A DNA stretch of 64,000 bases from Chachezhania sediminis (lineage in GTDB: Bacteria; Pseudomonadota; Alphaproteobacteria; Rhodobacterales; Rhodobacteraceae): contig NZ_VOPH01000002.1 in NCBI RefSeq assembly GCF_009765275.1, positions 682,001-746,000 of the forward strand, given 5' to 3'. A program made the translations under genes and the position numbers. Below are positions 30,705-34,512 of this stretch, piece after piece; position 1 is the first letter of the stretch, and each line of letters opens with the position of its first letter. Below the pieces are notes generated by a model that saw only the letters and a program-made list of their open reading frames with translations, searched no databases and had not been told where the DNA came from.

Positions 30705-30891
30705 ACCCGGGCCACGGCCTCACCATTTCAACGCCCCGGCCCGCATCCACGCGCGGGGCCGGTCCTGCCTATGGCCAGTGTCTGGCCTTTTCCAGCAAAT
30801 TCCGCTAACTGCGGCCCCAATGCAAGCCGACCGCCCCGTCCATTCCAGGGCATGTCGGCCAAGACCTCCCATCCCTCGACCGGACCGATCC

Positions 30892-32217
30892 ATGACGGCG
30901 CACAAGAAACTCTTCATCAAGACCTATGGCTGCCAGATGAACGTCTACGACAGCGAGCGCATGTCCGAGGCGATGGAGAAGGCGGGCTATCGGCCGACGG
31001 ATTCGGCCGAAGATGCCGACATGATCCTGCTGAACACCTGCCATATCCGGGAAAAGGCCGCGGAAAAGGTCTATTCCGAACTGGGCCGGTTCCGGGGGCT
31101 CAAGGCCGACAAGCCCGATCTGAAGATCGGCGTTGCCGGCTGCGTCGCCCAGGCCGAGGGCGAGGAGATCGTGCGCCGCCAGCCGCTGGTCGATCTGGTC
31201 GTGGGGCCGCAAAGCTATCACCGCCTGCCGGAAATGGTCGCCAAGGTCGACAGTGGCGCCCGCGCGCTCGACACGGACTTCCCGGCCGAGGACAAGTTCG
31301 AGCACCTGTCCGCCCGCCCCAAGGCGGCCCGCGGCCCGACTGCCTTCCTGACGGTGCAGGAAGGTTGCGACAAGTTCTGCGCCTTCTGCGTCGTGCCCTA
31401 TACCCGCGGGGCCGAGGTCAGCCGCCCCGCCGACCGCGTCCTGACAGAGGCCCGCGACCTGGTCGACCGCGGCGTACGGGAAATCACGCTGCTGGGCCAG
31501 AACGTGAACGCCTATCACGGTGCCGGCCCCGACGGCGACTGGTCGCTGGCCAGGCTGGTGCGGGAACTGGCCCGCGTCGACGGGCTGGAGCGGATTCGCT
31601 ACACGACTTCGCACCCCAACGACATGGAAGACGACCTGATCGCCGCCCATGGCGACGAGCCGAAGCTGATGCCCTACCTGCACCTGCCGGTTCAGTCCGG
31701 GTCCGACCGGATCCTGAAGCGGATGAACCGCAGCCATACCGCCGAATCCTATCTGCGCCTGATCGAACGGATCCGCGCCGCGCGGCCCGACATCCTGATG
31801 TCCGGCGATTTCATCGTGGGATTCCCGGAAGAGACCGAGGCCGATTTCCAGGCCACGCTCGACCTGGTTCAGGCGGTGGGCTATGGCTATGCCTATACCT
31901 TCAAGTACTCGACCCGCCCCGGCACGCCGGCGGCGGAACGCCCCCAGGTCGATCCGGCCGAGGCAGACGACCGCCTGCAGCGCCTGCAGGCCTTGATCCA
32001 CCGCCAGCAGCACGAGGTGCAGGACGCGATGGTCGGCCGCACCGTCAAGGTCCTGTTCGAAAAGCCCGGCCGCAAGGATGGGCAGATGGTCGGCAAGTCC
32101 GAGTACCTTCATGCCGTCCATGTCGACGAAGCGGGGCCCCAGACCGGCCAGATCCGGACGGTCGAGATCGTGAAGTCCGGGGCCAATTCGCTTTTCGGCA
32201 AGCTTTCCGGGACCTGA
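30892..32217 (+). CDS. miaB: tRNA-2-methylthio-N6-dimethylallyladenosine synthase
   Basis: 441 residues. MiaB is a radical-SAM enzyme that adds the methylthio group to i6A37 in tRNA. Domain order: UPF0004 ([31 protein letters not shown]), radical SAM with the cluster motif [15 protein letters not shown], and a C-terminal TRAM domain ([19 protein letters not shown]). The three N-terminal cysteines for the second Fe-S cluster are present. It heads the miaB-phoH-ybeY-corC-lnt block. Confidence 0.97.
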
Positions 32218-32472: not shown

Positions 32473-33042
32473 GTGATCAGACTGGCAAGAATGATCGTGG
32501 CGGTGATGGCGCTTTGCGGCGCCATGACGGCCGGGTTTGCGGGCATGGCGTCAGCTCAGGGTAACAAGGCGGTCAAGGGTGTGGGCGAAATCTACGAACC
32601 CACCATCTGGGTCGATCCCGACGGATGCGAACACTGGGTGATGGACGACGGCGCCGAAGGTTTCATGACGCCGCATGTGCGCCGCGACGGAACGCCGGTC
32701 TGCCGGCGGATCAAGGCCTGCGGCACGCTGGCGGCGGACCAGTTCTTCGCCGATGGCAGTGCCACGATTTCCGCGGCAGGGCGGCAACGCCTGGCCAAGT
32801 TCTTCCGCAACCAGAAGGCCGAGGGCTTCATCGTCAGTGGCCACACCGACAGCGCCGGCGCATCCCAGGCGAACCGCAAGCTGTCGACCGAACGCGCAGC
32901 CGCCGTGGCTGCCGTCGGCCAGGCGGTCGGGGCCAAGATCATCTCGGTCAAGGGGTACGGTGAGCTTCAGCCGCGGGCGTCGAATGCCAGCGAAACCGGC
33001 CGGGCGCAGAACCGGCGTGTCGACATCGTTTGTGTGAACTGA
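32473..33042 (+). CDS. Exported OmpA-family protein with an N-terminal WVDPxGC module
   Basis: 189 residues. A signal peptide (MIVAVMALCGAMTAGFAGMASA) precedes a module of about 35 residues, WVDPDGCEHWVMDDGAEGF ending in GTPVC (residues 46-77). A C-terminal OmpA-like peptidoglycan-binding domain follows: FFADGSATIS, FIVSGHTDSAG and YGELQP, then RAQNRRVDIVC. The same module occurs in the next gene, a lipoprotein. Both cysteines are conserved, 25 residues apart, and may form a disulfide. GTG 32473 has GGGG 10 bases upstream; ATG 32491 is the alternative. The 255-base gap before it shows a small CCCGA/TCGGG stem and no gene. Confidence 0.82.
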   Translation: MIRLARMIVAVMALCGAMTAGFAGMASAQGNKAVKGVGEIYEPTIWVDPDGCEHWVMDDGAEGFMTPHVRRDGTPVCRRIKACGTLAADQFFADGSATISAAGRQRLAKFFRNQKAEGFIVSGHTDSAGASQANRKLSTERAAAVAAVGQAVGAKIISVKGYGELQPRASNASETGRAQNRRVDIVCVN

Positions 33043-33053
33043 GGAGAAGACAG

Positions 33054-33353
33054 ATGCGTAAAGTTACGGCCCTTCTTCTTCTTGGTGCGGCGGCAGGTCT
33101 TGCTGCCTGCGACACGGCCACGGTGAACAAGACAGTCGACCACGGCCTGGACCGCAAGGACCTCAGCCAGCTGGAAGCGGGGATCTGGGTCGACCCCACC
33201 GGGTGCGACCACTGGATCATCGACGACGGCTTCGAAGGCTACCTGTCGCAGCGGCTGTCGCCGGAAGGCAAGCCGGTCTGTTCGGGAATCGCCCCGCCGG
33301 GAGTGGCCACCGGTCCCTACAAGGGCGACAGCTGGGTTTCCGACATCCTGTAA
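33054..33353 (+). CDS. Small lipoprotein with a WVDPxGC module
   Basis: 99 residues. The signal peptide ends in a lipobox, GLAAC, with C19 lipidated and Asp at +2 (a residue that favours inner-membrane retention in E. coli). The mature part is mostly the module IWVDPTGCDHWIIDDGFEGY ... GKPVC (residues 44-76), matching the preceding OmpA-family protein in sequence and in Cys spacing. GAGGAGA lies 6 bases before the ATG, and the gene starts 11 bases after its partner. The two proteins probably act together at the cell envelope. No family is known to me. Confidence 0.85.
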   Translation: MRKVTALLLLGAAAGLAACDTATVNKTVDHGLDRKDLSQLEAGIWVDPTGCDHWIIDDGFEGYLSQRLSPEGKPVCSGIAPPGVATGPYKGDSWVSDIL

Positions 33354-33501: not shown

Positions 33502-34512
33502 TTGGCCATTCGTGCCCTTACCCCACCGCCTAACGAGATTGCGCGTCCTGACGTGCAGATCGAATTCCCCGACAATCGTCTGCTGATAGACCTGTGTGGC
33601 GAGCACGACCGGAACCTGGTCGCGATCGAAAGCGCATTGTCCGTCCAGCTGGTCCGACGCGGCAACGTCATCGCCGTGATCGGAGAGCCTGCGGCCCAGA
33701 CCCGTGCGGCCGAGATCCTGAACGCGCTTTACGCGCGGCTGGAAGCCGGCCGCCCGCTGGAACCGGGGGATCTGGACCGCGAGTTCCGGATGGGCCGCCC
33801 AGCACCCTTCGATCCGGATCAGGACGCGGACGACCAGCTGGAGATGTTCAACGGCGACCACGTGGAAATCCGAACCCGAAAGAAGATCGTCGAGCCCCGG
33901 ACCGAGGCGCAGAAGGCCTATGTCCGTGCGCTGTTCGACAATGAACTGGCCTTCGGCATCGGCCCGGCGGGCACCGGCAAGACCTATCTGGCGGTGGCCG
34001 TGGGCGTGTCGATGTTCGTGACCGGCCAGGTCGACAAGATCATCCTGTCCCGCCCCGCCGTCGAGGCGGGCGAGCGCCTGGGCTTCCTGCCCGGCGACAT
34101 GAAGGACAAGGTCGATCCCTACATGCAGCCGCTTTACGATGCGCTGAACGATTTCCTGCCGGGCAAGCAGCTTCAGAAGATGATGGAGGAAAAGCAGATC
34201 GAGATCGCGCCGCTGGCCTTCATGCGGGGGCGGACGCTGTCCAATGCCTTCGTCGTGCTGGACGAGGCGCAGAATGCCACCACCATGCAGATGAAGATGT
34301 TTCTGACCCGCCTGGGCGAAGGCAGCCGCATGGTGATCACCGGCGACCGCAGCCAGGTCGACCTGCCGCGGGGCGTGGCATCGGGCCTTGCGGATGCGGA
34401 ACGGTTGCTGAAGGCGATCCCGCGGATCTCGTTCAACTATTTCACCTCGAAGGACGTGGTCCGGCACCCGCTGGTCGCCGCGATCATCGAGGCCTACGAA
34501 GCCGACGCGTGA
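33502..34512 (+). CDS. phoH: PhoH-like ATPase (YbeZ)
   Basis: 336 residues. Walker A is GPAGTGKTYLA and Walker B is FVVLDEAQNAT, followed by GDRSQVDLPRG. YbeZ partners YbeY, the next gene, in rRNA maturation and ribosome quality control. The start is a TTG at 33502: GAGGAG lies 7 bases upstream, the frame has no ATG before the conserved core, and the N-terminal residues IRALTPPPNEIARPDVQIEF match the family. A CGCTCG/CGAGCG stem lies just before the ribosome-binding site. Confidence 0.94.
   Translation: MAIRALTPPPNEIARPDVQIEFPDNRLLIDLCGEHDRNLVAIESALSVQLVRRGNVIAVIGEPAAQTRAAEILNALYARLEAGRPLEPGDLDREFRMGRPAPFDPDQDADDQLEMFNGDHVEIRTRKKIVEPRTEAQKAYVRALFDNELAFGIGPAGTGKTYLAVAVGVSMFVTGQVDKIILSRPAVEAGERLGFLPGDMKDKVDPYMQPLYDALNDFLPGKQLQKMMEEKQIEIAPLAFMRGRTLSNAFVVLDEAQNATTMQMKMFLTRLGEGSRMVITGDRSQVDLPRGVASGLADAERLLKAIPRISFNYFTSKDVVRHPLVAAIIEAYEADA

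Follow-up and report, generated by a model that had tools for sequence, protein, structure and literature searches.

Two exported proteins between miaB and phoH

In this study, we analysed two adjacent genes in a stretch of 64,000 nucleotides of Chachezhania sediminis DNA, the whole of which is referred to here as the window. The genes are separated by 11 bases and encode an exported OmpA-domain protein and a predicted lipoprotein, here termed O and L, which carry the following features:

32473..33042, + strand: O, exported OmpA-domain protein of 189 aa with a GTG start (open reading frame and PF00691 match)
32473..32556, + strand: putative type I signal peptide of O, ending in ...MASA (assigned by eye from the sequence)
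32608..32703, + strand: O copy of the shared module, W through second Cys (W-V-D-P...P-V-C; sequence and profile alignment)
32743..33015, + strand: predicted OmpA-like peptidoglycan-binding domain of O (PF00691 match, invariant Asp and Arg)
33054..33353, + strand: L, predicted lipoprotein of 99 aa (open reading frame and lipobox LAAC)
33108..33110, + strand: codon of the lipobox Cys of L, the putative lipid anchor (sequence; Cys invariant in the alignment)
33186..33281, + strand: L copy of the shared module, W through second Cys (sequence and profile alignment; modelled as a three-stranded meander)

Upstream of O lies miaB (open reading frame 30778-32217), and downstream of L lies phoH (33502-34512), which is followed on the same strand by ybeY, corC, lnt and metK. 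These names were assigned by similarity and from the annotated locus of Ruegeria pomeroyi, which in strain DSS-3 contains the pair as SPO_RS19800 and SPO_RS19805. The original prediction had placed two adjacent genes with a common motif at this site, inside the miaB-phoH interval, one with an OmpA domain and the other with a lipid anchor. The open reading frames and sequence of the window bear out the genes and their motif, the position between miaB and phoH was found again in relatives, and both expected ends are present, as a PF00691 match in O and a lipobox in L. No paper naming the pair, its R. pomeroyi tags or the motif was found in the open-licence literature.

The OmpA domain of O was recognized by PF00691 with 51.8 bits against a cut-off of 27.2 (1.1e-13, residues 91-181), and all 45 aligned O sequences match this model. 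As in other PF00691 proteins such as YiaD, YfiB and MotY, O has the domain with its Asp (D86, in GHTD) and Arg (R101, in LSxxRA), both invariant in 45/45 sequences; we take these two residues of OmpA domains to be the contacts to the diaminopimelate of peptidoglycan. The N-terminal module of O, on the other hand, is not part of the NCBIfam OmpA-type models, none of which reached its cut-off on O among the best 25 of 38 matches. With the Pal model TIGR02802 the score was 40.9 bits (cut-off 125.35), and the O chain opens with a type I signal, with no lipobox Cys ahead of the module. Since a true Pal, scoring 139 bits, is encoded elsewhere in the genome, O is not the Pal of this cell. In Pal, a lipid anchor and an OmpA domain form the two ends of a link from the outer membrane to the wall, and the same two ends are found in the pair; however, Pal unites them in one chain, whereas O, which lacks a lipobox, and L are two chains with a third part in common. 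The OmpA-domain proteins of PMC7901474, as far as the accessible part of that paper describes them, could not be mapped onto the pair.

L has the lipobox LAAC, the Cys of which is invariant in 14/14 sequences of alignment A2, and L is thus predicted to be a lipidated protein. The residue at position +2 after this Cys varies among 80 relatives (Asp in 19, Glu in 15, Val in 13) and does not point to one membrane for the sorting of L. No Pfam or NCBIfam model scored above its cut-off on L. The Omp10 model NF041251 resembles L in its lipoprotein N-terminus and a WVDP-like stretch, but the match is weak (15.9 bits, cut-off 100; residues 1-51), stops short of the Cys-His-Trp part of the module, and was not seen in any of 45 mature L sequences.

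The shared module and a probable remote relative

The module common to O and L comprises about 36 residues (IWVDPxGCxHWxxDDGxEG...GxPVC) and reads IWVDPDGCEHWVMDDGAEGFMTPHVRRDGTPVC in O and IWVDPTGCDHWIIDDGFEGYLSQRLSPEGKPVC in L, and its pattern across relatives is W-[VI]-D-P-x-G-C-x-H-W-x-x-D-D-G-x-E-G-[YF]-...-G-x-P-V-C. An identical cysteine spacing had been predicted for the two proteins and was confirmed, the distance from Cys to Cys being 25 in both. When the whole genome was searched with L, O was the second match (E 7e-13), the family profiles of O and L align over 38 columns (E 1e-20), and both module Cys are kept in both proteins in all of 80 named relatives, which are the top 80 among 545 confirmed matches. 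For these reasons the likeness goes beyond chance, and the two modules are, judged by their sequences, homologous. The proposal that the genes arose by duplication holds in so far as the modules are homologous, but not as a duplication of whole genes, since only about 36-38 residues are common; O has no counterpart of the N-terminus and tail of L, and L none of the OmpA domain. As far as can be read from the sequences, the relation between O and L is therefore that of a duplicated or shuffled module.

In each protein conservation is highest in the module, where the mean pairwise column identity is 0.88; the corresponding value is 0.67 in the OmpA part of O and 0.62 in the L tail (averages over the 76 and 78 of 80 sequences that are of equal length). 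The module residues W, D, P, G, C, H, W, DDG, EG, G, P and C are invariant in O and L across the 80 named loci, and in a mixed alignment of both proteins 15/38 columns are invariant. The number of cysteines is even in 80/80 relatives, L having two besides the lipid Cys and O four from the module onward, two of them within the module and two bracketing the OmpA domain; these counts fit the presence of disulfides. The two extra Cys of O, at the start and end of the OmpA domain (window 32743-33039), are themselves kept in 80/80 relatives and probably form a second disulfide that closes this domain.

The Cys pair, the His and the acidic residues, which vary little or not at all among the 80 loci, are also what one would expect of a two-part envelope sensor or regulator, in which the module senses redox through the Cys pair, or a metal through the His and acidic residues, and reports the distance between wall and membrane or stress. 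We consider this the least likely of the readings discussed here; a simple structural disulfide would account for the Cys pair, and neither a sensor kinase nor an anti-sigma factor nor a transcription regulator belongs to the conserved neighbourhood (miaB, phoH, ybeY, corC, lnt and metK).

AlphaFold2 models were made of O and L as single proteins, so that neither shows a complex. For L (45 sequences in the alignment; mean pLDDT 71.9, pTM 0.57), the module and tail were modelled as a three-stranded meander with strands at residues 22-27, 33-38 and 43-47 and a pLDDT of about 81-91. For O (mean pLDDT 81.8, pTM 0.71), the OmpA part was modelled well and the module poorly (about 60). Comparison of the L model with solved folds gave 75 Foldseek matches at E <=10 and none at 0.001, and in a second fold comparison the best Z was 2.3, which identifies no fold and excludes none. 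By sequence, L had no match in the PDB and O had 52 at E <=0.001; those inspected lie in the OmpA part, with the exception of three designed 'Cake' chains aligned to O residues 46-77, which were taken as chance.

The module had been called undescribed, and no model in Pfam, NCBIfam or PHROGs exceeded its cut-off on it (best in PHROGs, phrog_11767 of unknown function, 0.0084); there is, however, a probable remote relative in DUF6440 (PF20037). To our knowledge, this is a Bacillota family without known function. At E <1, DUF6440 was matched weakly by 29/45 L sequences (best 0.0091) and by 5/45 O sequences (best 0.059), and by neither L nor O of the window; the best score, 16.2 bits against the Pfam cut-off of 26.5, came from a hand-made consensus-like string. 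The two families align in the same register over 33-45 columns. Six DUF6440-like sequences were retrieved, and Pfam confirmed four. With natural sequences only, hhalign gave a probability of 89 and a score of 29.2, as compared with a mean of 8.4 (sd 2.2, maximum 22.0) in 600 column shuffles; the pairwise value of 2.3e-6 becomes about 0.06 after allowing for some 25,000 Pfam families. In contrast to the module, the DUF6440 proteins inspected have Val or another residue at both Cys places, no counterpart of the DD and E, and no visible signal peptide. On balance, these alignments make it reasonably likely that the module is a remote relative of DUF6440 with a putative disulfide of its own.

Conservation of the pair and its exceptions

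With a 38-column profile (A1), the module was found at E 1e-5 in 260/390 Rhodobacterales genomes, in two copies in 239 of them, one copy in 20 and four copies in one; 130/390 genomes had no module at this threshold. A broader profile (A5; 26 sequences, one of them a hand-made consensus-like string) was positive in 203/292 genomes at E 1e-3 and narrows no gap; the module-less genomes are therefore not due to a narrow profile. Sampling of the class (385 and 327 genomes in two samples, with 5 and 4 members of the family) gave only 2 and 3 weak hits outside the family (E 0.003-0.01), and a phylum sample of 398 genomes gave 3. In these searches the best 19-25 first-look candidates were scored per genome and the samples overlap, so that absence holds at that sensitivity; the five out-of-family hits inspected, all from the class samples, are chance-like in appearance. 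A phage origin was considered, and none of 52 pattern matches in viral contigs was confirmed. Eight plasmid records, from Ruegeria, Thioclava and Tritonibacter, contain the module, and in both plasmids inspected the whole miaB-O-L-phoH block is plasmid-borne. The pair is old.

Gene order was followed in the 80 named loci, which, as the best 80 of the 545 confirmed matches, are close relatives. In all 80, L follows O directly on one strand, most often with a spacing of 10-12 bases (54/80), and miaB lies upstream in 78/80 and phoH downstream in 79/80. Two of the flank exceptions (L072 and L097) are contig ends and one (L075) is a genuine exception for miaB; L111 has wider gaps on both sides. Together with the two copies in 239/260 genomes, this adjacency means that the two genes do co-occur in other genomes, and the original prediction, which would have been contradicted by their separation, stands in this respect. 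In 24 module-less genomes (of 28 chosen), miaB and phoH are less than 300 bases apart in 14, separated by 0.7-1.1 kb with no module inside in six, and in four the 1.5 kb covered contains no miaB. Because these gaps are short or module-free, O and L are absent together: the two genes come and go jointly, and the original prediction was correct in describing them as an interruption of the miaB-phoH order.

A promoter-like box, TTCACA-N16-18-TA, was seen 234-268 bases before the Trp of the O module in 24/79 loci (L033 among them; L072 was too short and was left out) and in no shuffled sequence. The pattern was drawn after viewing 8 of the loci, and the window has no such box.

In genomes without the pair, four larger miaB-phoH gaps hold other open reading frames (among them L147:2668-3432, L150:518-1351 and L152:2644-3174), some of which look exported and two of which resemble outer-membrane barrels. 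Envelope genes may thus occupy this gap recurrently. Other envelope-like reading frames filling the same gap, together with the conservation of the whole block from miaB to metK, would also be expected if O and L were neutral or loosely linked paralogues that stay together because the block is conserved and that have separate, ordinary structural roles. We regard this as unlikely, as such paralogues would not be expected to have the module as the best conserved part of both proteins, nor to be found together away from the miaB-phoH block. The latter is the case in one genome (G020), where a divergent O-L pair is present in addition to the first and on a different contig (L184:4001-4878). Its proteins have 203 and 82 aa, the genes are separated by 17 bases, and the module matches are 1.7e-11 and 6.2e-9. 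No miaB or phoH hit lies within the 9 kb inspected, and hence the pair is able to stand as a unit outside the block.

Not all module proteins are paired. In one genus (g4), 20/21 module-positive genomes have a single module protein, and one (G084) has the usual pair. In the six genomes inspected (L185, L186, L187, L188, L193 and L194), this protein is a relocated lipoprotein with an L-like start (DGGxDGGxL...ANIW) and an altered module end (PRC or PVC); its gene lies away from miaB and phoH with no O beside it, which argues that here the module does something without O. The reading frame upstream of it in L117/L185 is presumably glutamine synthetase-like, and in two genomes of this genus (G003 and G028) miaB and phoH are about 195 bases apart. 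In another genome (G058, L190:3712-4053), O ends directly after the module and lacks the OmpA domain, which could be a genuine loss or an assembly error; as it stands, the grip on the wall would be dispensable or in the course of being lost there. These two cases speak against a strictly two-part device. Smaller changes occur in divergent loci: DGG replaces DDG in O of L175-L183, L189 and L191, and one residue is added before PVC in O and L of the same loci and in L only of L190, a change of loop length that reflects few events and was not counted as evidence.

The history of the two modules was examined through their identities, which are 88% for O-O and L-L comparisons, and for O-L comparisons 57.5% within a genome and 57.5% between genomes (sd 2.6 and 2.7). 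Gene conversion between the O and L modules was considered; likeness within genomes equals that between genomes, and these loci show no sign of conversion. In a tree built from 75 modules (35 from O, 35 from L and 5 from lone lipoproteins; 22 random loci of the 80, the window and 12 divergent loci), O and L are not separated by a supported split; the best split places 4 L and the 5 lone modules on the O side with support 0, which gives no order of events.

Several of these observations would also be accounted for if the module bound a single ligand or some third protein of the envelope, such as a lipid or an outer-membrane protein, with O and L acting independently and making no contact. A common ligand would explain why the same residues are invariant in O and L, in 15 of the 38 mixed columns, and independent use is in line with the lone lipoprotein that keeps its module without O, with the O that has lost its OmpA domain, and with modules that do not track each other's changes (similarity 0.575 within genomes as between them). 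The strict pairing of the genes and the second pair of G020 are less expected on such grounds, and overall we hold this reading to be rather unlikely.

A possible two-protein link between outer membrane and wall

The conserved adjacency of O and L suggests that the two proteins work jointly in linking outer membrane and cell wall. We propose, as a tentative reading with somewhat less than an even chance of being right, that they form a split linker from the outer membrane to peptidoglycan, joined directly or via one partner. According to this proposal, the O and L genes would constitute a small operon-like unit of Rhodobacteraceae. L would be lipidated and held in a membrane, in all likelihood the outer membrane, and O would be soluble in the periplasm, where its OmpA domain, by analogy with the family, would grip peptidoglycan; the anchor and grip roles are assigned because the lipobox and the OmpA residues are present, and the joint task because the genes are strictly paired. 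The module itself may be a small beta-meander, stabilized by a putative disulfide and with an invariant acidic face (D, DD and E). Finally, the modules would couple O and L, either by pairing directly or by docking on the same third partner, and this coupling is the least certain part of the proposal. The lone lipoprotein and the truncated O indicate that the parts are separable.

In a more specific form, the pair would be a split Pal-like tether of Rhodobacteraceae, joined by a duplicated, secreted and disulfide-bearing fold of the DUF6440 type, so that the link could be made and broken; this version is speculative, and we would not favour it at present.

Proteins with a comparable task have been described. 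Most Alphaproteobacteria are without Braun's lipoprotein, and in Rhodobacter sphaeroides DalA (RSP_1200), an outer-membrane lipoprotein, binds peptidoglycan and has been reported with the L,D-transpeptidase of the neighbouring number, RSP_1199; DalA is present in 93% of Rhodobacterales genomes and also outside the class (PMC10470522). Like the proposed O-L device, DalA is a peptidoglycan-binding outer-membrane lipoprotein of Rhodobacterales, but it is described as a single lipoprotein, unlike the two-chain pair. By analogy, DalA would be the nearest described kin in function.

If the split linker that we propose is correct, O and L would form a conserved component of the envelope in a large and mostly marine family that is without Braun's lipoprotein, and they would show how a connection from outer membrane to wall can be split between two proteins. 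DUF6440, a domain with no known role, would at the same time gain a possible secreted branch with a context.
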